Source: an uncultured Acidimicrobiales bacterium
GTDB taxonomy: Bacteria; Actinomycetota; Acidimicrobiia; Acidimicrobiales; SZUA-35
DNA length: 36,260 nt
Reading direction: 5' to 3'
Assembly (NCBI GenBank): GCA_937930655.1
Contig: CALHBU010000049.1
Location: 1 to 36,260, forward strand
The notes below the pieces were generated by a model. That model was not told where the DNA came from and searched no databases. It was given only the letters and a program-made list of their open reading frames with translations. The position numbers and the translations under genes were made by a program. This document shows positions 9,443 through 32,694 of this stretch, in pieces; the stretch's first letter is position 1, and each line of letters starts with the position of its first letter.

Positions 9443-10454
9443 CCAACCGGCCGAAGGCTTCGGCCGAGGACGGAGACGAGTCGTAGTCCCAAACACAGTC
9501 GGGGAAGACGCCTCCGGGGGCAGTGACGTCGAACCAGGCCACAAACGCAACATCGTCGACCAAGTCGGGGCTGGTCAGTGTTTCGGTTGCCTCGTCAAGC
9601 CACTCACCCTTGCGACCTTCGACCCCGGGATCTTCGACCGAAGCCACTTCGGGGAGAGCAAGCGGTTTGCCGTGGTCACGAGCAAACGCCAATGGTGCTT
9701 CGATCAGCGTCTCCAGGCTTCGCCATTCTCGATTGGTGCCCTGACAGGTGAACCAGTTGTAGGTGTCGGCCCCGATCACGTCGACCACGTCATCACCCGG
9801 GTACCACTGATCGGCTCTCCCGCTTCGAAAACTGCCACCGGTGAGCACCCACGCCAGGTCAAGATGCTGGCCCCCACTCTCGTCGAGCAACTCAGCCACC
9901 CGGCGCCACATCACGACAAAATCCTCTGCCGTCCCATTGGCTTCGCTATCGCTGGTCTCCGGCTCATGGTTGATGGTCACATAGGTGCCAGCCGGCAGCT
10001 TCACCAGTCGATCAATCCACTCTTGGAGCTGGCCATAGATGGCACTACCCGGTTCGGCCGCGGCCAAGTCGGCCCACAAGATCGGCACCCCCTGATTGGT
10101 CCTGGGCCTAATCGACAGATGCACCCGGTAGCCCGCCGCCACGAACGTGTCGAGATCGAAGTCGTCGGGATCGTCGTCCCACCGGGCAAAAAGTCGAACC
10201 AACTCGAACTCGCTGCCAATTGCCGACTCGATCGCCTCGACCTCATCGGCCTTGCTCCTCGGCACCGCAACGCCAAAGGCCAGCCCTTCACCGCGTTCCG
10301 ATGACCTGGTTATCGGCGCCGCCCCATCATCAACACCGGATACCCCCACACCGGTGCCGCGATTGGTCACCGGCTCCTGCTGAGTGCAGGCGGCGACGGC
10401 CAGGAGCAATCCCACCACCAACGGCCCCAGTTGAAACGCTTGTGGCCGCCTCAT
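9420..10454 (-). CDS. GH26-like glycoside hydrolase lipoprotein
   Basis: Signal peptide with lipobox (LLLAVAAC); TYVTINHEPE, DQWYPGDDVVDVIGADTYNWF and KPLALPEVASVEDPG resemble GH26 active-site segments. Confidence 0.72.
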   Translation of the reverse strand: MRRPQAFQLGPLVVGLLLAVAACTQQEPVTNRGTGVGVSGVDDGAAPITRSSERGEGLAFGVAVPRSKADEVEAIESAIGSEFELVRLFARWDDDPDDFDLDTFVAAGYRVHLSIRPRTNQGVPILWADLAAAEPGSAIYGQLQEWIDRLVKLPAGTYVTINHEPETSDSEANGTAEDFVVMWRRVAELLDESGGQHLDLAWVLTGGSFRSGRADQWYPGDDVVDVIGADTYNWFTCQGTNREWRSLETLIEAPLAFARDHGKPLALPEVASVEDPGVEGRKGEWLDEATETLTSPDLVDDVAFVAWFDVTAPGGVFPDCVWDYDSSPSSAEAFGRLVRTLEDG

Positions 10455-11833
10455 CCGGACGCTTCAACCGGAGCGGCTAGATCGATGACCGCCGGTGACA
10501 TCGGCGCGGCGTCGCCGTCGATCTCGGTGCCGTCTTCCAGGCGTTTCAGCCGGATCGCAACAGCCACCGCAGCGAGCATCACGAAAATCTGGTGAGGAAC
10601 GTGGAGGTAGTAAGGCACCTGGGCCAACCCAATGATGATCACGACATGGGCCCACATGCCGGACACCGATTGCGGTCGTCGGGTGTTCCACGCCATGACG
10701 AGGAAAGCACCGAAATAGCCGACGACTCCAACGAAGCCGTAGCTGAACATGATGAACCAGAGCTGACCGTGGGTGCCGACCGACGGCAGATTGCGATCGT
10801 TGGGCCGAGGGGCACCCCAGCCAAACACCGGTCGCTCCATTGTTCCGTCGACGGCATCAAAGATCAGTTCAAAGCGGTCGGCGTTGGAATGAGCGGTATC
10901 GATTCGGGCCGACGCCACGCCGCCAAGAGGAGTAACGACCAGTGCCACGAACAAGAGCAGGACAGCGATGAAGGCGTTGCGCAATGCCTTGGCTTCGCCC
11001 GCCACACCCAACCGCAGTGCTGCGTAGACAAGACCGAATCCGAGGCTGAGCCAGAGTCCGCGGTTGAGCGACAACACGCCCGGCACAAGCGACGCCACCA
11101 GACCAAATTTCACCAATCGAGACGACAACCCGACCCTTGGCTCCCGCAATGCGATCAGCGCGAAGGGGGTAAGAAGCGCCAGCAACGAACCCCAGGTATT
11201 GGTGTAGGGATAGGGCGCCTTGGGCCGGGGCACAGGGAAACCGATGATGTCCTGAAGGTCGGCAAAGCTCGGCGTGACCATGGTTCGGATCAGGTCATTT
11301 TCAAGGAGGGGGCCGGGAATCAAATAGGCGGTCGGCGAGCGGAAGCCGAGATCGCCGAGCAGGAAGGCCAGGTAGCCGCCGGCCACCGTCGTCAGCCAAA
11401 GCACGGTGAACGAACGGATGATGGTCCAGACGTTCAGGCCACGTCGACCGTTGAGCAGATACAGCAGGAAGACGGTGGCCGCCACGTAGTAGCCCGAACG
11501 AAGGGTCCAACCGGCGAGTCGAGCAACCGAGTCGATGCTGAAAACCGACCCGCCAACGGCCAGGAGGAACACCACCCACCAACCCATTCCCTTCGGCGCC
11601 ACCAACTGACGGCGCCGAAGCAAGGAGGCTGCCATAGGGGCCGCGAAAATGATCCAGGTGAAACCACTGAGACCCAGCACGAACCAGAGCGGCAGCCAGC
11701 TGATCATGAGCGTCAGCGGCCAAGCCGGTAGCGGAGCCTCGGCCTCTGGCCGATAGATCGGAGGCCGCGTCCCGGCCTTTTCTTCCTTACTGGGAGAGTG
11801 GTTGGGAGAAGAGGCGGTGGCCGGAGAGGTCAT
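10451..11833 (-). CDS. O-antigen polymerase/ligase-like membrane protein (Wzy/WaaL superfamily)
   Basis: 460 aa polytopic protein; RPVFGWGAPRPNDRNLPSVGTHGQLWFIMFSYGFVGVVGYFGAF is typical of the Wzy_C/O-antigen ligase region. Confidence 0.8.
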   Translation of the reverse strand: MTSPATASSPNHSPSKEEKAGTRPPIYRPEAEAPLPAWPLTLMISWLPLWFVLGLSGFTWIIFAAPMAASLLRRRQLVAPKGMGWWVVFLLAVGGSVFSIDSVARLAGWTLRSGYYVAATVFLLYLLNGRRGLNVWTIIRSFTVLWLTTVAGGYLAFLLGDLGFRSPTAYLIPGPLLENDLIRTMVTPSFADLQDIIGFPVPRPKAPYPYTNTWGSLLALLTPFALIALREPRVGLSSRLVKFGLVASLVPGVLSLNRGLWLSLGFGLVYAALRLGVAGEAKALRNAFIAVLLLFVALVVTPLGGVASARIDTAHSNADRFELIFDAVDGTMERPVFGWGAPRPNDRNLPSVGTHGQLWFIMFSYGFVGVVGYFGAFLVMAWNTRRPQSVSGMWAHVVIIIGLAQVPYYLHVPHQIFVMLAAVAVAIRLKRLEDGTEIDGDAAPMSPAVIDLAAPVEASG

Positions 11834-11866
11834 GGCGTCAGGAAGTAGAGCGGTGAACCTCGGGGC

Positions 11867-13474
11867 TCACGACTCGGAACCCGAGGCAGCAACAATGGTG
11901 CCGATGACATCGGCACCAACCAAACGGAGCTGTTCCACAGAGTCTGCCACGCCAGAACGGGTTGCCCGATTCGGCTCAACGACCAGAACTGCCCCCTCGA
12001 TGAGTCGAGCGAGATCGACGGCGTCGGCCACCTGAAGCACCGGAGGTGCTTCGAACACAACAAGATCGAACTCGGCTCGGGCGGCCGAAATCATGCGACC
12101 CAGTCCATCGCCCTGGAGCAATCGAGAGGGTGCGTCGACGGGCGAGCCAGCAGGGAGAATCTGCAGCTTCGGGACATCGGGGAGCGTTTGAATGGCCTGA
12201 CTTATGGGTACCCGGCCACTGAGCACATCGCTCAGTCCAACAGAGTTGTCGAGGGCAAACCGCTCGTGAAGACTCGGGCGACGAAGGTCGGCGCCGACCA
12301 GCAGCGTCCGACGGCCAGCTCGGGCAGCGGCTGCGGCCAGGTTGGCGGCCACCGTGCTCGACGAGTGCGGGTTGTTCGGTCCTGCGACAAGCACGGTCGA
12401 CTTGTCGAGCTGATCGAGGTTGAAGGTGAGGGAGCCCTGTACCCGGCGGTAGGCCTCGCCGGCGGGACTGTTGAGGCTGGCAATGGCCGATTCCCGTCCA
12501 GGCTTGAAACGGCCAACTCCGACGGGAACGGTACCGAGAACCTGCATACCCATCCCGGCCAGCTCCACTGACGGTGAACGAAGTCGATCGTCCCGGCGGT
12601 CGAGGAGGAACACTCCTGCGAGCCCGGCGATCAGGCCGAGGAGACCACCCAGGATGGGTCCGGCCAGACCGGGAACGCCACTGGTTCCAGTGGGCAGACC
12701 AGCGTCGTTGAGGACCTCACCGGGGTCGATGCTGATGGAGTCGATATTGGCCAGCTTGGCCCCGATGCCCGCCAACTCTTCCCGCTTCGAGATCTCCCGG
12801 TAGGAGAGCGATCGGGTCCTGGTTTCGTTGTCGCCAGCTGCGCCGAATTCGCTGGCCAGCTCATCAAGTTCGGCTAGCAGCTCGATCTCACGGTTGATCA
12901 GCTGGTCTCGAGCGATGTTGGTGGCCGAGAGGCCTTCGTCCCGTCGAAAGTCGAGGTATGCGTGCGCTGTGGCCTGGGCCAACTGCTGGGCTCGTTCTGC
13001 CCTGGCGCCGCTCACGGTGATCACCAGAATCTGAGAATCGTTGGGGGAGGTGATCTCGATCTGTTCGATGATCTGACGGGCCTGGTCAGGATCGGCGGGG
13101 CGGGAGGCCGCTTCCAGTTCGATGTCGGGGTTGTCGAGATCAACTCCCAACGGGTTGCCAGGAGAGAGTTCTTCAGCCACCTCCAAGAGGGCGAGGGCTC
13201 GTTCGACCACCCGCTGGGAGGACGCGATGATTTGTTCGGTCTCGAGGTCGACCTGACGACTGGCGTCCAGATTTGGGTCATCGCCGGCAATTACCAGGGG
13301 ACGAACTTCAACCTGAGCTTCGGCCTCGTACTCGCTTGACTGGAGCGACAGCACAAAGAAGCCAACGACAGCACCCACGACGGTTGCCACAACGATGATT
13401 GGCCACCACCGCTTGAGCGGAGCCAGGTACTCAGCTAGGTCAAGGACAGCATCGCTGTCGGCCATAGTGGACAA
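11867..13474 (-). CDS. Wzz-type chain-length regulator fused to BY-kinase-like (CpsD/CapB) domain with degenerate Walker motifs
   Basis: N-terminal YLAPLKRWWPIIVVATVVGAVVGFFVLSLQSSEYEAEAQVEV (Wzz); C-terminal TVLVAGPNNPHSSSTVAANLAAAAARAGRRTLLVGADLRRPSLHERF (BY-kinase-like). Confidence 0.88.
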   Translation of the reverse strand: MSTMADSDAVLDLAEYLAPLKRWWPIIVVATVVGAVVGFFVLSLQSSEYEAEAQVEVRPLVIAGDDPNLDASRQVDLETEQIIASSQRVVERALALLEVAEELSPGNPLGVDLDNPDIELEAASRPADPDQARQIIEQIEITSPNDSQILVITVSGARAERAQQLAQATAHAYLDFRRDEGLSATNIARDQLINREIELLAELDELASEFGAAGDNETRTRSLSYREISKREELAGIGAKLANIDSISIDPGEVLNDAGLPTGTSGVPGLAGPILGGLLGLIAGLAGVFLLDRRDDRLRSPSVELAGMGMQVLGTVPVGVGRFKPGRESAIASLNSPAGEAYRRVQGSLTFNLDQLDKSTVLVAGPNNPHSSSTVAANLAAAAARAGRRTLLVGADLRRPSLHERFALDNSVGLSDVLSGRVPISQAIQTLPDVPKLQILPAGSPVDAPSRLLQGDGLGRMISAARAEFDLVVFEAPPVLQVADAVDLARLIEGAVLVVEPNRATRSGVADSVEQLRLVGADVIGTIVAASGSES

Positions 13475-13567
13475 CTTTCGGGTGGAGGACCGAGTTCGGT
13501 TCTCTCCTCTTTCGGTTCAAGACGTCAGAGGTTGAGGAGTAGACGCCCGAAATCAGGACCCCGGAAA

Positions 13568-15082
13568 TTACTCGCAGAGGGTCCCGACTGGCGTCGCTGG
13601 AACGACACCGGGGGCGCTCGACGTCGGGCCCGCCGGGGTCGTCGTCGGCGAGGTCGTCGCTGTGCCTTCGTCGGCCGGCGCCGTCGTCGACGGGGTCGGG
13701 AGTTGGTAGTTCTCCCGTGGCGATGGGCGAAGACCCTCGAAGTCGGTGCCGGTCACCAAAACGACAGCCTCGAGAGTCGGATCGACCTCGAAGCCGGGAC
13801 CGGCCACCAGGTAGGCGGCCAGTCGGGCGGCGCCCGCTTCACTACCGGGGGCATAGCGGATGACCGTTCGCTCGGTGGTTTCGCCATTGCTGATGTTCTC
13901 GACGTTGATTCCGACCTCGGCCAATGCGGTTGCGATCTCACTGGCCTGACCGGCAACCCGATTGCCGTTGATCACCTCGTACACCTGCGGCACCACCGTT
14001 TCGGCAGCTGGAGGTGGCTCTTCTCCTCGGAAAATGGCGAGTACTCCAGCCGCGGCTTCACGATCGAGTCCGAGGACAGCGGCACCTGTCGAGGTTCGGA
14101 AGTCGTAAATCGGAAGCGAATGACCGATGATCTGCTCGTCACTCACGTTGGCGAAGATTCGAGCCAGGCCCAGTAGGTCGTCCGGACCAATGGTCTGATC
14201 CTTGGTGAAATTGTCACCACCCGCATCGAGTACGCCGTTAATGGTCCCGATGTCGGCGATGTCCAGCCTGCTCACCGCGGTAGCGGCAACCCGGCGGAGG
14301 AAGTACTGCTGTCGACTGGTGCGACCAAGATCGCCGGTGCCGTCCAGACGCCAGGAACCATCCTGGAAGTACTCGAGATTGCGGCCTCGAGCGAAGGCCA
14401 GCGCCTGATCGCCCGTCAGCCGGTGACACCCGGCACTACTTACGTCGAGACCAGAACCGGCGTCGCGCATCGGGCGATCGAACCAGATCGGTACGCCGCC
14501 AATGTTGTCGACGATGTCCCGAAAGCCGACAAAGTTGATTTCGGCGTAGTGGTGAATCTCGATACCGAGGCTCTGTTCCACTGTTTCGAGCAGACGCTGC
14601 TCGCCACCGTCACCATTGAACGCGGCGTTGATGCGGCCATCGCCACCGTCGGAGTAGCTGACGAAGAGATCTCGGGGAACCGAGAGCAGGTGGACCTCGG
14701 CCAGCTCGGGGTTGACCCTGGCCACGATGATTGTGTCGGTTCGTTTGCCGTCGGGCACGCCGGCGCCGACCAACACCCCGGCGTTGACGTCGTCTTCGGA
14801 GATCCCTTCACGGCTGTCGCTCCCCACCAACAGCCAGTTGGTTGTCTCTCCTTCGGCTGCCTCACCAACTCCCTCTAGCTCGACGGTATCGATGGCATTC
14901 CACTTGTCGAGGCCCCAGGCCAGGACCCCCACCGACAAAATGGCGATCGCAGTGCCAATGACCCCAAGGCTCAAAACAAAACGCTCAAAACCAGACCGTC
15001 GTTGAACAGGTCGGCGTCGACGGGCAGCCGGTGTGGGGTTCGCCTCTGGTGTTCCCTCAGATGATGAAGCGGGCGCGGACAT
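13568..15082 (-). CDS. LytR-CpsA-Psr (LCP) family protein with C-terminal LytR_C domain
   Basis: NWLLVGSDSRE...KRTDTIIVARVNPELAEVHLLSVPRDLFV...RINAAFNGDGGEQRLLETVEQSLGIEIHHYAEINFVGF...LTGDQALAFARGR; C-terminal VYEVINGNRVAGQASEIATAL...VLVTGTDF. Confidence 0.93.
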   Translation of the reverse strand: MSAPASSSEGTPEANPTPAARRRRPVQRRSGFERFVLSLGVIGTAIAILSVGVLAWGLDKWNAIDTVELEGVGEAAEGETTNWLLVGSDSREGISEDDVNAGVLVGAGVPDGKRTDTIIVARVNPELAEVHLLSVPRDLFVSYSDGGDGRINAAFNGDGGEQRLLETVEQSLGIEIHHYAEINFVGFRDIVDNIGGVPIWFDRPMRDAGSGLDVSSAGCHRLTGDQALAFARGRNLEYFQDGSWRLDGTGDLGRTSRQQYFLRRVAATAVSRLDIADIGTINGVLDAGGDNFTKDQTIGPDDLLGLARIFANVSDEQIIGHSLPIYDFRTSTGAAVLGLDREAAAGVLAIFRGEEPPPAAETVVPQVYEVINGNRVAGQASEIATALAEVGINVENISNGETTERTVIRYAPGSEAGAARLAAYLVAGPGFEVDPTLEAVVLVTGTDFEGLRPSPRENYQLPTPSTTAPADEGTATTSPTTTPAGPTSSAPGVVPATPVGTLCE

Positions 15083-15176: not shown

Positions 15177-15542
15177 ATGGTTGCACTCGTGTCCGACGAC
15201 CTGCGGTGCCCGTCCTGCGGTGAAGACGACGATCTTCGAGGCGAACCGGTCGAGCAAGAAGCCGACAACGAATCGGTAGGGATACGGGTTACCTGCGGTG
15301 CCTGTGGAGCGGTATGGGAACGGACCGGCCGGGCGACGTGCCCCCGCTGCGAAGGCGACAACATGTACTTGGCACCGGTGGCCATCATCGAGAAGAGCAG
15401 GGGCAGCCAATTGTCGATCCTCGGTACCAGAACCACTCCCCTGTGCTGGGTGTGCGATCGCGATCTCATCGATGCCCAGCGACAAAGCGGTACCGCTCTC
15501 ATGCCCGATGAGCTCCCGACCCTCGACCGCGAGACTGAATGA
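15177..15542 (+). CDS. Small protein with multiple CxxC zinc-ribbon motifs
   Basis: CPSC, CGAC, CPRC and CWVC pairs in 121 aa; overlaps tag by ATGA. Confidence 0.65.
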   Translation: MVALVSDDLRCPSCGEDDDLRGEPVEQEADNESVGIRVTCGACGAVWERTGRATCPRCEGDNMYLAPVAIIEKSRGSQLSILGTRTTPLCWVCDRDLIDAQRQSGTALMPDELPTLDRETE

Positions 15543-16177
15543 CCGACGACTCCACGTCGGAAGATCTTGTGGTCGGCGACGACGGGCGGCCGCGATGTAG
15601 CTGGGCCACCTCAGCTGCTGACTACATCCGGTACCACGACGACGAATGGGGACGACCGGTTACCGACGATCGAACGCTCTTCGAGAAGATGTGCCTCGAG
15701 GGCTTTCAGTCAGGCTTGTCGTGGATCACGATTCTCCGTAAGAGAGAAGCGTTTCGAGAAGTCTTCGCTTCGTTCGACGCAGACACGGTCGCCAACTTTG
15801 ACGAGCCGGAGGTCCTTCGTCTTCTCGACGATGCCCGCATTATCCGGCACCGGGGCAAAATCGAGGCAACGATCAACAACGCCCGCTCCCTTTTGGAGTT
15901 ACAGAACCAGGGCGAGTCGTTGGCCGGTCTTATCTGGTCCTTTCGGCCGGCAGAACACCGTCGCCCAACAGCCATGGTCGAGGTGCCCGCCACCACCGAG
16001 GAATCAGCAGCACTGGCCAAGGAACTGAAGCGGCGGGGATTTCGCTTTGTCGGACCCACGACCGCCTACGCCGCCATGCAGGCCATGGGTGTGGTCAACG
16101 ATCATCTGGAACATTGCTGGGTGGGCGAAGAGTGCGAGCAAGCGCAGAAACAAGCGGTTATCTCGCTCTCTGGATGA
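15539..16177 (+). CDS. tag: DNA-3-methyladenine glycosylase I
   Basis: RCSWATSAADYIRYHDDEWGRPVTDDRTLFEKMCLEGFQSGLSWITILRKREAFREVF...FRFVGPTTAYAAMQAMGVVNDH. Confidence 0.95.
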   Translation: MTDDSTSEDLVVGDDGRPRCSWATSAADYIRYHDDEWGRPVTDDRTLFEKMCLEGFQSGLSWITILRKREAFREVFASFDADTVANFDEPEVLRLLDDARIIRHRGKIEATINNARSLLELQNQGESLAGLIWSFRPAEHRRPTAMVEVPATTEESAALAKELKRRGFRFVGPTTAYAAMQAMGVVNDHLEHCWVGEECEQAQKQAVISLSG

Positions 16178-16243: not shown

Positions 16244-17518
16244 ATGGGAATCGGAATGGACTCGGTATTCCCACCCACCGTCCTCCAGAGATTGCAGAGT
16301 GAAGTCATTGATCCAACGGGGGTCGCCGGCGGCATCGTCGGTCCTGTCGGCTTCGAACTCAGACACATCTCGGGGCTGAACGCCGGCGCTGCGCATCCCA
16401 TCGCGGCCGGTGGCATCTCATTCTCTGCGGCCGACGGGGAGCCTGGTTTCCGGCTTGACGCCGATGCCGACGGAGCCATTGTCGTCACACCGCTGGCTCT
16501 GCCGGTCCGACTCGACAACCGGCCCATCGATGGTCCCCGCCAGGTCGGCGACGCTGTACTGGACGTTGGTTTCGCTGCATTTACTGTTGCCTCCCGCCGG
16601 TCCACGCCGCCTCGATCGCCCGGCACACCTGCGGACCCAGAACGGACCTTGAACCGCAGACCGGCCACAACAGGCCAGGTGTCCATACCCGTGAACGGCA
16701 TCGAAGAACGAGAGCTCATCCGTTTGGTTCAGCTCGAGTATCAGTCAGCTCTCTTCCATGCCCGCGAGATGTGGCCCGACCCTGAGGAGATCATGTTTCA
16801 GATCTTCGAGCAGGGAAGTCGAGTCTGGTCCGAGCCAGTCAGCGACCCCGCGTTCGGCCACGCAGCTGTTGCACTCGGAACCTTGCCATGGCAACCCGAA
16901 CTGAGCAGACCGCTAGATCTGAGTCCTGACACTTTTTCGAAGCTCAAGGGTTATCAAGCTCTGCCATCGGTACCGGTGGTTGCCGATTTCAGCCTGGGCC
17001 CCGTTGGCCTCGTCGGACCACGAGAGATGACACTGGCCGTTGCCCGTCAATTGGTTCTCAACCGAGCAGTGCTGAGTTCCCCTCACGACCTTGCGGTCGG
17101 GATCATCGCCAACAGCCAGTCCATCGCTGACTGGGCGTGGATCGAGCCACTGCCCCACCTGGCTCGACAGTCGGGCCCTCGCCGTCCGCTACGGGTGCTG
17201 GACGACCCAGATCGACCGACCGAGTCAGCCGAGGTGATCATTTCCACCGACATGGACCTGCTCCCCGAACGGTGCGCACTGTCGGTTGAAATCAACCCCG
17301 ACGGAACCTGCACCGTCATCGACAACGGCACGGGCAGCGTGACCATGGCCGCCATGCCGCTCGGTCTACACCCCGATCTGGCGCTAGCCGCCACCGGGAT
17401 GCTCTCCCGACTCGTTGACGCGGTGCCGACACGCGTTCCGTCCATCCCCAAAATTCGCAGCCGGTCGCCGATCGGATCAGCGCCACTGGCTATGGGGTAC
17501 GAAAGCTCGTTCTTCTAA
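16244..17518 (+). CDS. EssC/EccC (FtsK/SpoIIIE)-type N-terminal module: degenerate FHA-like plus stalk/pseudo-ATPase-like region, no FtsK motor domains
   Basis: FHAREMWPDPEEIMFQIFEQGSRVWSEPVSDPAFGHAAVALGTLPWQ, VPVVADFSLGPVGLVGPREMTLAVARQLVLNRAVLSSPHDLAVGII...DWAWIEPLPHL and STDMDLLPERCALSVEINPDGTCTVI match the pre-motor region of actinobacterial FtsK/SpoIIIE/EccC proteins; stop at 17518. Confidence 0.7.
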   Translation: MGIGMDSVFPPTVLQRLQSEVIDPTGVAGGIVGPVGFELRHISGLNAGAAHPIAAGGISFSAADGEPGFRLDADADGAIVVTPLALPVRLDNRPIDGPRQVGDAVLDVGFAAFTVASRRSTPPRSPGTPADPERTLNRRPATTGQVSIPVNGIEERELIRLVQLEYQSALFHAREMWPDPEEIMFQIFEQGSRVWSEPVSDPAFGHAAVALGTLPWQPELSRPLDLSPDTFSKLKGYQALPSVPVVADFSLGPVGLVGPREMTLAVARQLVLNRAVLSSPHDLAVGIIANSQSIADWAWIEPLPHLARQSGPRRPLRVLDDPDRPTESAEVIISTDMDLLPERCALSVEINPDGTCTVIDNGTGSVTMAAMPLGLHPDLALAATGMLSRLVDAVPTRVPSIPKIRSRSPIGSAPLAMGYESSFF

Positions 17519-17527
17519 CCGGGACAG

Positions 17528-18715
17528 CTACTTCTTGGTACCAATACCGAGCAGCGGCTCGGCATTGGCCCAGTCCGGCCACCGCTTCCTGCTCTTCTCC
17601 GCCAGCTTGTGCATGAGGGCGATAGCGGCCGGGTCATCGTCGCCCGGCCGGGTCTCGATGACACCGTCCTTGATCATGGCGTCCATGATGGCTCGACCCA
17701 GATCGGTACGGACGATGGTGAGGGTCCAGTCAGTCTCGTTGCCGATGCCACCGGTCGAAATGTCGGCATGCTCGGCTGCGAAATCGGGGCAGTGATTGCA
17801 GCCCTCTCGCGTCCAGGCGTGACACTCCTTGAGATTGATCTCGTGGTAGTCACCGTTCTTCATCCACACCTGGAAGACACCCTTGATGTTCATCTTGACG
17901 ATGTCTTCTCGGGCCAGGCCGTACTTAACCTCGAACAGTTCCTCGAACATCGAGTCGTCGAAGCTCTTCGAACAGAGCAGGCCGATGTTGAGCTTGATGG
18001 GTTTGGAGACCTTGCCCACCTTCCGATGCCACATAACAGGGGCGATGGAGGTCTGGCAGCTCATGCCAACCAGGGCCAGGTTCTCCAGGCCCTTCTCTCG
18101 AGCCTCGTCGTAGGCCATGGTGTTGGCCGAGTAGGTGTAGCGGCTACCGGCGCCGGCCAGAACTTCCTCGGCATTGGTGGCCACCCCGGGGGTGGCCTTC
18201 CAACCGCTGCCACCTTCCAGCATTGAAACAAGCGCCCCATCGATGATCTTGTTTTCGAGGCACCAGATGAGGATGGCCGATACCAGGCCGCCGTCCTGAC
18301 CCTTGTCGTACACACCGTCGTCCTTGGCCCTGACAAGAAGAATGTCCTTGAAGATGCCAGAGACTTCATCGTCATTGCGGGTGCGACCGAAGAGATGCTC
18401 GTCGGCCTCGGTCTCCCAGCTTCGGAATCGGGGGCAAGCCCTGGTGCAGGAGGTACAGCCCTTCTCGCCGTGGATGCAGTTGTCGATGCCGAGTTCTTCC
18501 TCGAGATGGAAGGGCTTGTAGGCGCCTGGCTCGTGTTTGTAGCCAATGACATCGTGGGGGCAGGAAATCACACAGCCTGCGCATCCGGTGCAGAGCCCGG
18601 ACGTGATGACCTCGGAGTGAAGCTCCTTCCACTGGAAGGTCCAACGCTCCTTCTTTGGCTTGGCTGCTGGAACCGCGGTGTCCGTCACCCGGACAATGCT
18701 AGAGCTCGACCTCAT
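17528..18715 (-). CDS. Coenzyme F420 hydrogenase/dehydrogenase beta-subunit family (FrhB-like) Fe-S protein
   Basis: SGLCTGCAGCVISCPHDVIGY and CIHGEKGCTSCTRACPRF cluster-binding motifs, then DGVYDKGQDGGLVSAILIWCLENKIIDGALV... and CNHCPDFAAEHADISTGGIG. Confidence 0.88.
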   Translation of the reverse strand: MRSSSSIVRVTDTAVPAAKPKKERWTFQWKELHSEVITSGLCTGCAGCVISCPHDVIGYKHEPGAYKPFHLEEELGIDNCIHGEKGCTSCTRACPRFRSWETEADEHLFGRTRNDDEVSGIFKDILLVRAKDDGVYDKGQDGGLVSAILIWCLENKIIDGALVSMLEGGSGWKATPGVATNAEEVLAGAGSRYTYSANTMAYDEAREKGLENLALVGMSCQTSIAPVMWHRKVGKVSKPIKLNIGLLCSKSFDDSMFEELFEVKYGLAREDIVKMNIKGVFQVWMKNGDYHEINLKECHAWTREGCNHCPDFAAEHADISTGGIGNETDWTLTIVRTDLGRAIMDAMIKDGVIETRPGDDDPAAIALMHKLAEKSRKRWPDWANAEPLLGIGTKK

Positions 18716-27668: not shown

Positions 27669-28616
27669 TCACCGGACCGGCCCTAGGACAAGGGATGGCA
27701 ACGCCGCCCCAACGAACAGCACCATCACCGGTGCAATCAACAACAACAGCGGCACCAACATGGCGGTGCGTCGCTTCACCGCCAGTCGAGCCACTTCATC
27801 CCGTCGTTCAGCCCGAAGGTCGTCGCCGACCGCAAGCAACGCGCCAGCGATGTCGCCTCCCGACCGGGCCGAGGCGGCCAACAGGCGGTAGAAGCGGGCG
27901 GCCGAGGGCTCGGGCGTCGTGGCGGCCAGGCGCTCGTACGATTCTTGAGGCAACGCACCACCGCTCATCCAGTTCAGCGCCTCTCGCAGCTCCTCCACCA
28001 CCGGCCCGCGACCGAGACGACACACCGATCGGATGGCCTCAACCGGTCCGTGTCCTGTCCGCAGATGGACTGCGACCAGCTGGCTCACGGTGTAGACCTC
28101 GGTTCGCATCCTGGCTCGTCGAAGATCGATCGCCCGCTGCACTCGATTGCGTTGAACGGTGGCGGCCGGAAAACCAAAGGCCACCATCAGCAACAGCACA
28201 CCGCCGGGCGATCCGAGAAGCGTCAGGCCGAGGAACGCCCCCAGGGTCACGCCGCCAACGCCGGTCGCCAACTGGCGCATCCGATACTGCAACGGGTCGA
28301 GCTGAGTCATACCAGCCTGGCGAAGGCGTACTTCGAGCTCGGCGTAATCGGCGATGTCGAACCGCCGTGCCAGAAATCGGAAACCCTGCTCTATCGACGG
28401 TCCGAGAACCCGCCACAGCACCGATTGGTCGGCTGTCGACACCAGTGACACAACCGATACGTCGGCGTAGCCGGTGCCGAGGCGGGACCGACCGAGCGCG
28501 GCGTATGGTCGGAGGCGCCCGGCCAACCGATGCCGAGGTGGCACCAAGATCCGAACCACAGCCGCCGCGCTAACGGCCGCCATTACGGCGGCAAGCACTG
28601 GTGATTCCACGGTCAA
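27669..28616 (-). CDS. TadC-like type II secretion F-family protein
   Basis: GTEVYTVSQLVAVHLRTGHGPVEAIRSVCRLGRGPVVEELREAL...ASARSGGDIAGALLAVGDDLRAERRDEVARLAVKRRTAMLVPLLLLIAPVMVLFVGAALPSL. Confidence 0.88.
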   Translation of the reverse strand: MTVESPVLAAVMAAVSAAAVVRILVPPRHRLAGRLRPYAALGRSRLGTGYADVSVVSLVSTADQSVLWRVLGPSIEQGFRFLARRFDIADYAELEVRLRQAGMTQLDPLQYRMRQLATGVGGVTLGAFLGLTLLGSPGGVLLLMVAFGFPAATVQRNRVQRAIDLRRARMRTEVYTVSQLVAVHLRTGHGPVEAIRSVCRLGRGPVVEELREALNWMSGGALPQESYERLAATTPEPSAARFYRLLAASARSGGDIAGALLAVGDDLRAERRDEVARLAVKRRTAMLVPLLLLIAPVMVLFVGAALPSLVLGPVR

Positions 28617-29491
28617 ACCCCTCCCCCGGCCAACGTTCGTTCCTCTCTTGGACGTCGTCCGAGCCTCGAAATAGCTACCAGGCCAGCACCAGACAGCAAC
28701 CCGCCGAGGAGCACAACCAACCCCCCGGTCGGAGACTGGTAGAAGGCCCGGTAGTCGTCCGATGTTGCACAGAGGAGGGCCAACACCACGAAGGGCAGGA
28801 CGGTGGCCGCCCTGGCCTCCAGCTTGGTTTCGAGCTGCGCTGTCTCGACTTCCTCGCTGAGACGGAGGTCGCCGACGGTGGCGGTAGCGAGGTCTTCGAG
28901 AATGTCGATAACCACCGACGGGCCCTGCTCGAAGGCGACCAGGACCACCTCGATAACCCGGTCCGACAACGGATCGGCCAGTTCCTCCCGCACGACCTCA
29001 AGGGCCGCTCGTTGGTCGAGCGCGCCGGCCAGCGTGCGATAGCGATCGAAGTAGGGCCGAAGAGGATCCGGCCCAGTCTCTGCTAGCTGGACAAGACCTC
29101 GATGGATCGAGAGATTGGCCCGCAGGTGGGTGATGAGATCCCGCAGGGCGTCGGGCCAGGCATCGGTTCGGGCGGCAGTCAGACGGCGACGTCGCTGACT
29201 CAAAACAGCCAAGGGGATAGCCGCACCGCCGAGACCGGCCAGGAACGACAGCATCGGGACCCCAACAAGCAACAGCGTGAGACCTCCCGCCGCCGTTGCG
29301 GTGGACAACGATGCCACCCCAACCTGTCGCACCGACACCTCGACACCCGCCTGATTCAGCCAGTCCTGCGCGCCTGCTCCTCGACGCCGAGTGACAGGAC
29401 GCTGGTCGAGCCATGACGGGGTGACGCCAAACAGCGACCCGAGCGTCAGGTACACCAACACTGCGGCTCCAAGTCCGGCCAGCAATCTCAT
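28613..29491 (-). CDS. TadB-like type II secretion F-family protein
   Basis: WPDALRDLITHLRANLSIHRGLVQLAETGPDPLRPYFDRY...EVVREELADPLSDRVIEVVLVAFEQG; start at 29491 gives a 4-bp overlap with tadA. Confidence 0.85.
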   Translation of the reverse strand: MRLLAGLGAAVLVYLTLGSLFGVTPSWLDQRPVTRRRGAGAQDWLNQAGVEVSVRQVGVASLSTATAAGGLTLLLVGVPMLSFLAGLGGAAIPLAVLSQRRRRLTAARTDAWPDALRDLITHLRANLSIHRGLVQLAETGPDPLRPYFDRYRTLAGALDQRAALEVVREELADPLSDRVIEVVLVAFEQGPSVVIDILEDLATATVGDLRLSEEVETAQLETKLEARAATVLPFVVLALLCATSDDYRAFYQSPTGGLVVLLGGLLSGAGLVAISRLGRRPREERTLAGGGV

Positions 29492-30780
29492 GCCAGCACC
29501 GCCCGGCCCTCCAGCAGATCGGAAACGGTACGCCCGACGGGTCGCAACACACGGTTGACTCGAACCTCGAGCTCCGACGGCAACTGGGTGCCGGTCCATC
29601 GGAGCGGAGAGCCAAACTCGTCCCGAACGAAAATCGGTTCGACGGTGAAGTCGACCTCGCTCCCCTGCAACGGCGGAACAGCAACGATCTCCATGACCTG
29701 GCGCCGCCCGCCGGTTCCGTCGCCCGACGCGGCGGCGGGCTCTTTGGCGACGTGAACGACAAGGTCGACGATCGAGCTGAACACGTGCCGTACCTGATCG
29801 ACTGCCACGTTGTTACCAGCCATTACCGCGGTCGACACCAGAGCCTGGAGACCCTGGCGGGCCCCATTGGCGTGAACCGTGGTGAGCATCCCGCAACCGG
29901 CGTTGCCAGCCCTCGTGATCTCATACGCCTCGGCCCCACGGGTCTCACCCAGCACAAGGAGGTCGGGCCGCATCCCCAGTGACATCCGCACCAGGTCCCG
30001 CAACGAAATCTCACCGTTGCCATCGGGTCCGGGCGGCCTGGTCCTCCACCGGGCAGCATGAAGATGCTCCACCGAGAGCTCCGGAGTTTCTTCGCACGCA
30101 ATTGTCCGCAACGAAGGGGGCGCGGCCCGCAGCATTGCGTTCAGCAAGGTGGTCTTGCCTGCGCCCGGCTGGCCCGTCACCAGAACCCCGGTCGGCGTTC
30201 GAAGCATGGCAACCAACAACGATGCCCCAGCCGGATCGATGGCGTCCCATCCGATCAGCTCAGCGAAGGTCTCCCTCCTCGTCAGGTACCGCCGCAGGGT
30301 TACGTCGATTCGGTCGGCCACCGGCGGCATCACGACACCAAGGCGAGCTCGACCATCCAACACCTGGGTTTGAACAACTGGCCTGCTTTCATCAACCGAG
30401 GCACCGACCGTCGCCAGCAACTTGCTGACCACATGGGTGACCTCGGCCTCGCTGACTGGCTCGGGATGAGCAATCAACCGACCCGAAGGATCGATGTAGC
30501 TCACCTGATCGCCGTGAACGATCAGCTCCTCGTACCGGAGCGAATCATCCATGAAGGGGGTCAGCGGGCCATAAGCCAGGATCGACCGGGCGAGTCGGGC
30601 CACCATGGCCGACGGATCATGCAGCGGCGGGCTCCCCGCTCCCGACGTTGACTCGATCTGATAGCCGTCGACGAGACGACGGACGAGTTCCAGCACACCG
30701 TCGGCGTCGGTGGGGTCAAGCTCGATCCGTTGCAGATGATCAAGTGCCTGACGTCTTAGCTCCTCATAGACGTCAGGCAT
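29488..30780 (-). CDS. tadA: TadA/CpaF-type secretion ATPase
   Basis: GVLVTGQPGAGKTTLLNAMLRAAPPSLRTIACEETPEL...LGMRPDLLVLGETRGAEAYEITRAGNAGCGMLTTVHANGARQGLQAL: intact Walker A, His box and Walker B. Confidence 0.95.
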   Translation of the reverse strand: MPDVYEELRRQALDHLQRIELDPTDADGVLELVRRLVDGYQIESTSGAGSPPLHDPSAMVARLARSILAYGPLTPFMDDSLRYEELIVHGDQVSYIDPSGRLIAHPEPVSEAEVTHVVSKLLATVGASVDESRPVVQTQVLDGRARLGVVMPPVADRIDVTLRRYLTRRETFAELIGWDAIDPAGASLLVAMLRTPTGVLVTGQPGAGKTTLLNAMLRAAPPSLRTIACEETPELSVEHLHAARWRTRPPGPDGNGEISLRDLVRMSLGMRPDLLVLGETRGAEAYEITRAGNAGCGMLTTVHANGARQGLQALVSTAVMAGNNVAVDQVRHVFSSIVDLVVHVAKEPAAASGDGTGGRRQVMEIVAVPPLQGSEVDFTVEPIFVRDEFGSPLRWTGTQLPSELEVRVNRVLRPVGRTVSDLLEGRAVLA

Positions 30781-31993
30781 CGGCTAGCTCCCGCATGGAT
30801 TCGGTCAGACGACTGATTGACCGGAGGAACGGGCCGCTGAGGACAAGGGAGGCGTCCCATGCCGCACGCTCGACCCGCCGATCTCGCGGTACGACGGCGA
30901 TCTGACCCAATCGGTCCCCGGCGATCTCTCTCAGCTGATCAACCAACTGCTGGGTGGCCGAAGCACTGGGCGAGGAGCGATTGAGCACAACGTCAATCGG
31001 CGCATCACCGATCAACGACAACGCATCCACCAACCAGTCGACGAACCGAAGAAGACCGGTTGGTGAGCCATCACACACTGCCACTACCCGGTCTGCCCGG
31101 GCGGCTGCCACCCGACTCACTTCGAAACGGTCGACATACCGGGAAAGGTCCTCGAGTTGTGGGCCCAACCGGGTCACCACTACTGGCCAGTTGGCCGAAA
31201 GCTCGGTCAGCAACTCCCCGACATCATCGGCCCGGACCAGCGACCAGTCGTCCCTCGTCGCCAACCCGGCGATGACGTCGAAGGGCAGGCCCGATCGACC
31301 AAGGGCTGAACGAGCCAGGCAGGCATCGAACGACAACTGCTGGCTGGGCTCGCTCGGGAGCCCTTCTGCCGACGAGAGTTCCCCTCGGACCACATCGACC
31401 GCAGTGAGCAGATGAGGGTGAAGGCCAAGACCCAGGCGGCGGGCCAAGGACGGATGGGTCTCGTCGACGTCCACGAGTACAGGTGGTCGACCACCTCGGG
31501 CCAGCGACTGGGCCAACGCCACCGCAACCTCGGTGGCACCGGCCCCGGCTGGTCCGCCGACGGCGATGATGCTTCGCTCGGCCACCGGCCGGCGTTGCGA
31601 AAGCTCGGCGGTCATGGCTTCGAAGCGACCAGCGGTACTCGGGTCGGGCCGTTGGAGTCGAACCAGATCGACCAGTTCTTCGACCACCAGTTCGGCGCTG
31701 ACCTGGCAGCTCACACCCAACCGCTGGAGATGCTGGCGACCATGCCCATCGGCCTCGGCTGGATCGAAGAGTCCCACCAGCGACACCCCGACGTCTCGGG
31801 CCTGGTTGACGAAGGGCGCTGAGAGCCAGCTTGTGTCGTCGTCGAAGAGAACGACGTCGAGGCCGATGTCGAACGCATCTCGGCCTTCATGCAGGAGATG
31901 CACAACAAGGTCAGCTTCGTGATCCCGGCAATACCGTTGCAGACTGCCCCGCCAGTCCCGGGGGCTTAGTGCGACGCCAACGTTGATGGTCAT
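30773..31993 (-). CDS. CpaE/TadZ-like ParA/MinD-superfamily protein with degenerate Walker A
   Basis: RSIIAVGGPAGAGATEVAVALAQSLARGGRPPVLVDVDETHPSLARRLGL; N-terminal receiver-like region; tad operon position. Confidence 0.85.
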   Translation of the reverse strand: MTINVGVALSPRDWRGSLQRYCRDHEADLVVHLLHEGRDAFDIGLDVVLFDDDTSWLSAPFVNQARDVGVSLVGLFDPAEADGHGRQHLQRLGVSCQVSAELVVEELVDLVRLQRPDPSTAGRFEAMTAELSQRRPVAERSIIAVGGPAGAGATEVAVALAQSLARGGRPPVLVDVDETHPSLARRLGLGLHPHLLTAVDVVRGELSSAEGLPSEPSQQLSFDACLARSALGRSGLPFDVIAGLATRDDWSLVRADDVGELLTELSANWPVVVTRLGPQLEDLSRYVDRFEVSRVAAARADRVVAVCDGSPTGLLRFVDWLVDALSLIGDAPIDVVLNRSSPSASATQQLVDQLREIAGDRLGQIAVVPRDRRVERAAWDASLVLSGPFLRSISRLTESMRELADA

Positions 31994-32694
31994 GAGTTCT
32001 CCTCTTGCCCCTGGACAGCGACGGTCGGCAGTGGTGGAGCAAGCGAGGGGGCACCGGTGGACCGGACGATCTCAACCTGCTCGACCCGAAGGGCCGCTAT
32101 CAGGTTGATGACTTGGGCCGGCGTCACTTCCACCGTGACGAACGAACCACCGAGCGATCCGGTCAACCCACCGGCAGTCCCGGTGTCTGGAAGTCGGGTG
32201 ACTTCCAGATCCGAAGCCACCACGTCGACCTGGCCGTTGCCGTTGACTCCCACCACGTCTACCCGGTCGCCCGGCCGGAGCGCTAGACCGTCGATCACCC
32301 GGTCGTCGACCGGGACGGTGAAGGTTCGACCGCCGGCTTCGGCGCCGACCGCCAGCACATCGGATCGTAGAACCGGCTCTCCGGCTGCGATGGGCCTCCG
32401 AGCAAGACCTTCGTCGAACGCCAGGATCGGGGTCAGTTGGTCGAGCAGAGGGTGTCCGACTGCGATGGGGACAGCGGTGAGGTCGTCGACCCGGACGGGT
32501 GCTCCATCCTCGATGGATTCGCGAGCAACCAGGACGTCGACGGTCGCCGATCGATCCTCCAGAACTGAGCTGACAGCCAAGAACGTGAGCAACCCACTGA
32601 TCACCATCAACCCGTGTGTGAGCGTGAGGCCCGTCGGAGCAATCCGGGAAACGGGGCGAGGCAAACGATGGACGGCCGTCGGTCGGCGAAGCAT
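31990..32694 (-). CDS. CpaB/RcpC-like SAF-domain protein
   Basis: DVLVARESIEDGAPVRVDDLTAVPIAVG...EGLARRPIAAGEPVLRSDVL...DRVIDGLALRPGDRVDVVGV; TM segment near the N-terminus; start chosen at 32694 (MLRRPTAVHRL). Confidence 0.85.
   Translation of the reverse strand: MLRRPTAVHRLPRPVSRIAPTGLTLTHGLMVISGLLTFLAVSSVLEDRSATVDVLVARESIEDGAPVRVDDLTAVPIAVGHPLLDQLTPILAFDEGLARRPIAAGEPVLRSDVLAVGAEAGGRTFTVPVDDRVIDGLALRPGDRVDVVGVNGNGQVDVVASDLEVTRLPDTGTAGGLTGSLGGSFVTVEVTPAQVINLIAALRVEQVEIVRSTGAPSLAPPLPTVAVQGQEENS

Follow-up and report, generated by a model that had tools for sequence, protein, structure and literature searches.

Inspection of a 36,260-nt stretch of DNA from an uncultured Acidimicrobiales bacterium (hereafter, the window) showed a gene, named X1, to be flanked by two genes that are also its usual neighbours in related genomes: tag on the upstream side and a gene for an FrhB/FdhB-like Fe-S protein on the downstream side (Table 1). 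The X1 reading frame runs over 424 codons with zero internal stops, and the convergent FrhB-like gene ends at position 17528, 9 bp away; a sequence-only reading of this DNA had described both features, and the coordinates of the two genes agree with it. A small zinc-ribbon-like frame that overlaps tag possibly opens a transcription unit comprising tag and X1. In relatives, the order around X1 was typically tag, X1, the convergent frhB, a small lipoprotein-like gene, a UDG gene, a histidine phosphatase gene, DUF3090 and a PI3/PI4-kinase-like gene. In several of them a gene for a protein with OmpA and BON domains lies between X1 and frhB, including the same-genus relative G002; it is absent from the window locus, where frhB follows directly. 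As the earlier reading had noted, no WXG100, EccB or EccD gene was recognised within the window, although for EccB the search was blank in control genomes as well.

Table 1. Features of the X1 locus, and the X2-motif fusions found in two related genomes
Feature	Residues	Position	Strand	Remark
X1, motorless EccC/EssC-derived protein, 424 aa		16244..17518	+	FHA-like, stalk, DUF pseudo-ATPase
N-terminal segment of X1	1-27	16244..16324	+	Site of the family LGxDLDxxL-type motif
FHA-like domain of X1	28-117	16325..16594	+	
Stalk and first half of EccC DUF domain	156-309	16709..17170	+	
Degenerate Walker A-equivalent, GPREMTL	258-264	17015..17035	+	GEREQVL in EccC5 DUF
DUF domain, second half	310-393	17171..17422	+	Ends where the D1 linker starts in full-length EccC
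Degenerate Walker B, RVLDD	317-321	17192..17206	+	
tag (DNA-3-methyladenine glycosylase)		15539..16177	+	Conserved upstream neighbour, 66 bp from X1
Small zinc-ribbon-like ORF		15177..15542	+	Overlaps tag; weak Pfam matches only
FrhB/FdhB-like Fe-S protein		17528..18688	-	Conserved convergent neighbour
X2-motif BON-OmpA fusion, G023:C49		L107:5567-6412		
X2-motif BON-OmpA fusion, G029:C545		L108:4410-5234		

Searches with the X1 protein placed it securely among the derivatives of EccC/EssC. It matched the NCBIfam models TIGR03928 (E=1.8e-12) and TIGR03924 (E=3.5e-10), in both cases over residues 172-309, with scores of 39-46 bits that lie below the curated EccCa/EssC family cut-offs of 509 and 778; in the PDB it matched YukB (9qks, E=6e-7). 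A profile made from 33 motorless homologues matched EccC5, YukB, EccC3 and the EccC5 DUF crystal structure with E-values of 1e-11 to 2e-7. The homology is confined to the pre-motor region: the chain ends after the DUF domain and before D1, PF01580 was not matched, and the Pfam search of X1 returned zero matches, hence no FtsK_SpoIIIE. The ATPase domains D1-D3 are thus absent, as proposed earlier for an orphan protein of the EccC/EssC pre-motor type, and since the motors are absent X1 stands outside the EccC/EssC ATPase family by that family's defining features. No hydrophobic segment of X1 rose above the threshold for a predicted membrane helix, whereas EccC/EssC carry two such helices before the stalk. 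Both nucleotide-binding motifs of the DUF domain are degenerate; D320 of the Walker B was invariant across the 33 motorless proteins, and the window X1 has lost additional residues near this motif. An AlphaFold model from the single sequence (pLDDT 31) was set aside.

The N-terminal part of X1 had been read as an FHA-like segment. The match was not significant for X1 alone, but a family profile lends it support: this profile matched the FHA-type domain 3gqs (E=1e-4) and, more weakly, the FHA domains of TB39.8 and YscD, while Pfam Yop-YscD_cpl was matched in 6 of 20 family members (best, 8.5e-6). The phosphothreonine-site residues Arg, Ser and Asn are not conserved in the family alignment, in which the only invariant columns were G17, G21, G29, F42 and F86. 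The LGxDL-type motif that precedes this domain is degenerate in the window copy.

Matches to X1 were found in 43 of 61 relative genomes. In the bacterial family to which the window belongs, most strong matches were motorless open frames roughly 400-600 aa long, and a scan of 33 motorless homologues matched EccCa in 32 and PF01580 in none. Motorless X1 orthologues were present in most members of this family, usually between tag and the frhB-like gene. In a survey of 149 genomes from the order, short frames that match the motorless profile over nearly its full length were confined to this bacterial family; the matches outside it were mostly EccC-type proteins of 1100-1700 aa, plus a few shorter frames. 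Among 298 genomes across the phylum, E-values of 1e-38 or below were obtained only in the window genome, in a sample that apparently held few or no other genomes of the family. A scan of genome contigs returned only L021, which reads as DNA gyrase B with the stretch DGTCTVIDNG in common and was rejected as a homologue; scanning viral contigs with the family alignment gave no usable pattern.

Two further readings of X1 were weighed against this distribution. A recent truncation is disfavoured, given that the relatives across the family, when checked for continuation into motors, proved to be motorless too, and in conserved synteny. It is also very improbable that X1 is a decaying, functionless remnant of EccC. 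The window copy has indeed lost residues near Walker B, the N-terminal motif and the OmpA neighbour; however, its frame is intact, and dN/dS was below 0.5 in all pairs tested (0.06-0.45, approximate values, since synonymous sites were near-saturated in several pairs). These ratios, together with retention across the bacterial family, count against the decayed secretion ATPase considered in the sequence-only reading: the motorless family is under purifying selection.

A tree was built from 57 FHA-DUF regions; it is unrooted, and contig ends truncate some of the EccC rows. A single branch (support 99/96) separated all 39 motorless proteins from all 18 that are motor-bearing or EccC-type. The window protein lay inside the motorless side, closest to L022_14 (100/97). 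This topology speaks for a single loss of the motors without proving it. Three motorless subtypes could be distinguished: X1, to which the window gene belongs, and X2 (403-425 aa), both made of the FHA-like domain, stalk and DUF only, and X3 (620-750 aa), mostly with two membrane helices. The C-terminal domain of X3 matched D2 of EccC, with D1 skipped, and amounts to a second dead ATPase domain. In several genomes X3 adjoins a gene that reads as lysyl-tRNA-synthetase-like. The window genome holds all three subtypes, with X1 on contig C49, X2 next to an OmpA gene on C253 and X3 on C441. In one genus (G017 and G007; L057, L058), in which no motorless gene was found, the full-length EccC was the motor-bearing protein closest to the motorless family; this genus also encodes, at an unlinked site, an OmpA protein bearing a PAWAGR-type motif (L095:5696-6673).

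Split forms of EccC exist: in ESX-1, EccCa is the N-terminal part of EccC made as a separate chain, and it retains the membrane helices and D1 together with the DUF. X1 resembles EccCa in being an N-terminal EccC part as a chain of its own, and differs from it in lacking both the membrane helices and D1. In genome G059 (L105:2140-4733, on C25), an EccC-like gene is apparently split into a 581-aa X-like frame and a separate 252-aa FtsK-type frame, a split that could be natural or a frameshift. The ESX-1 precedent and this arrangement are what an X1 paired with separately encoded motor domains, in the manner of EccCa and EccCb, could draw upon. However, EccCa keeps D1 with the DUF and X1 does not, and two genomes with X1, G006 (94% complete) and G015 (92%), showed no FtsK-type protein other than canonical FtsK. 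There is little chance that X1 works in this way.

A full-length EccC, sought elsewhere in the window genome as had been proposed, was found on contig C280 with a WXG100 gene directly upstream of it (1437 aa for the EccC-like product; L075:295-4923). No YukD/EccD match was obtained in this genome, so C280 holds a very small type VII locus. In trans with such an EccC, which would supply the motors, X1 might join the type VII secretion ring as a subunit with a regulatory or dominant-negative effect, its DUF co-assembling with that of the motor protein; the presence of WXG100 and EccC in the same genome fits this, as does the proposal that the DUF is an inter-protomer surface of EccC (PMC11154593). 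Nevertheless, X1 was near EccC in no locus examined and is not linked to WXG100, and in G006 and G015 the searches found no EccC motor, WXG100 or YukD. A partnership of X1 with an EccC motor is therefore improbable, and action in trans is decidedly unlikely. A missing piece of assembly could account for the pattern in one of these two genomes, less easily in both. The same genomes tell against the earlier suggestion that X1 pairs with a motor encoded elsewhere, and of the three readings then offered the standalone scaffold fits best.

The motorless family shows a link to BON-OmpA genes. For 13 of 36 motorless genes, a BON-OmpA gene lay directly downstream on the same strand, often with a 4-bp overlap, compared with none of 12 motor-bearing genes (Fisher p=0.02, for rows that are related rather than independent). 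The enrichment was far stronger relative to the background rate of such genes in the loci, which had been chosen around X genes. The adjacent copies were distributed as four with X1, six with X2, two with X3 and one with a divergent member. The partner, judged from those of relatives and from the protein on C253, is a single-pass protein in which one membrane helix is followed by BON and OmpA domains, the BON matches being below the Pfam cut-off. D282 and R297 were invariant in the OmpA domain, an Asp-Arg pair 15 residues apart, a spacing that matches the diaminopimelate-binding pair of OmpA. Near the N-terminus, on the cytosolic side, many X1 and X3 partners have an LPxW-type motif, and X2 partners a GWVxEK...LPDL motif. 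On C280, about 14 kb from the EccC gene, another protein with an OmpA domain is encoded, which has a cytosolic IPEWS segment (L075:18997-19998).

In two genomes in which no X2 gene was found, G023 and G029, the OmpA protein starts with the X2 N-terminal motif LGDDLGGVL (Table 1), and the two proteins matched an X2-only profile with E-values of 5e-7 and 3e-8, respectively. Their arrangement looks like the outcome of an X2 deletion that joined the first codons of X2 to the OmpA gene. The presence of an X2 motif on the OmpA protein provides a gene-fusion argument for joint action of X2 and OmpA.

For X1 of the window the OmpA link is at its weakest, because the OmpA gene is missing from the locus, even though G002 has it. 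The role of X1 might instead be tied to its own neighbourhood, for example to the tag glycosylase, with the OmpA link holding for X2 and X3 only. In most X1 loci tag is immediately upstream whereas OmpA is adjacent in only four, and three genomes of one genus (G006, G016 and G022) have X1 with no close OmpA relative found. Yet the X1-adjacent OmpA proteins carry the same type of cytosolic motif and are encoded between X1 and frhB, several other X1 loci have an OmpA gene 7-9 kb away on the same contig, and the tag neighbourhood also includes unrelated housekeeping genes. A role confined to this neighbourhood is thus considered unlikely.

The reading we prefer, to which we would give slightly less than an even chance, sees X1 as a soluble scaffold without catalytic activity that descends from the N-terminal half of an FHA-bearing EccC/EssC, acts independently of ATP and is anchored through OmpA. 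The FHA-like domain would dock on the cytosolic tail of the single-pass BON-OmpA protein, at its conserved LPxW motif, as FHA2 of EssC does in S. aureus when recruiting EssB (PMC9436818). The analogy is imperfect, since EssC lacking D1-D3 was stable but no longer co-purified with EssB in that organism (PMC9436818). The DUF domain might self-assemble; that of EccC5, whose Walker A is degenerate (GEREQVL), fails to bind ATP and may form hexamers (PMC11154593). The product would be a cytoplasmic adaptor with no need for ATP, kept at the membrane and attached to peptidoglycan via BON-OmpA, which may recruit a client through the N-terminal LGxDL-type motif. With no OmpA gene beside the window X1, its partner would be encoded at another locus of the genome, a candidate being the OmpA protein linked to X2 on C253. 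For the family as a whole we likewise infer a role as a cytoplasmic scaffold that works without ATP and is linked to the cell wall. The broader proposal, that one motor loss in the ancestor of a single actinobacterial family left FHA-DUF paralogues which together with peptidoglycan-binding BON-OmpA proteins form an envelope scaffold free of secretion, is more tentative still.

No described equivalent of the motorless family was found in the libraries and open-access papers searched. X1 shares with EccC/EssC (TsxC) the stalk and a DUF with degenerate Walker A and B, and with EssC the FHA-like domain, which some full-length homologues in the same bacterial family have as well; it differs in lacking TM helices, D1, D2, D3 and any linkage to WXG100, and in being present where no EccC was detected. 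The type VII accessory proteins TseJ/TsfJ likewise have an FHA domain and no motor, but carry DUF6382 in place of the EccC stalk-DUF and are located in T7SS loci (PMC11217815). Rv0899 (ArfA/OmpATb), one of the two nearest solved relatives of the partner (2l26, E=4.6e-29), likewise has an N-terminal membrane anchor followed by BON and OmpA-like domains; the partner differs in its conserved cytosolic LPxW-type motif and in adjoining motorless EccC-like genes. The only PADLOC matches were of the OmpA-type partner to ZorB; with Zorya ZorB and MotB it shares an OmpA-like peptidoglycan-binding domain, but its best match falls in that domain region, and no ZorA-like gene was noticed in passing beside it. 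In the open-access literature no paper linked EccC, FHA and an OmpA-family protein to one another, none dealt with a motorless EccC or with type VII secretion in Acidimicrobiia, and the single match that combined type VII secretion, OmpA and BON was a broad review of NMR work on M. tuberculosis proteins.

The DUF of EccC appears to be catalytically dead, yet a Walker B mutation in it abolishes ESX-3 secretion (PMC11154593). The retention under selection of an FHA-stalk-DUF block after loss of all the motors shows that this block can function apart from ATP hydrolysis, and the motorless family offers small soluble proteins with which to study how this block assembles. If the preferred reading is right, part of a secretion machine has been reused in a cell-envelope role.

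Two other regions of the window, both on the reverse strand, contain genes for surface structures. Positions 10451-15082 form an exopolysaccharide-type region with a Wzz chain-length protein, a LytR-CpsA-Psr protein and an O-antigen-ligase-like protein, the last with a score below the cut-off. Positions 27672-32607 hold Flp/Tad-type pilus genes (RcpC/CpaB, a ParA-like protein, a T2SSE ATPase and two T2SSF proteins), and smaller frames reaching down to 26158 are pseudopilin-like.
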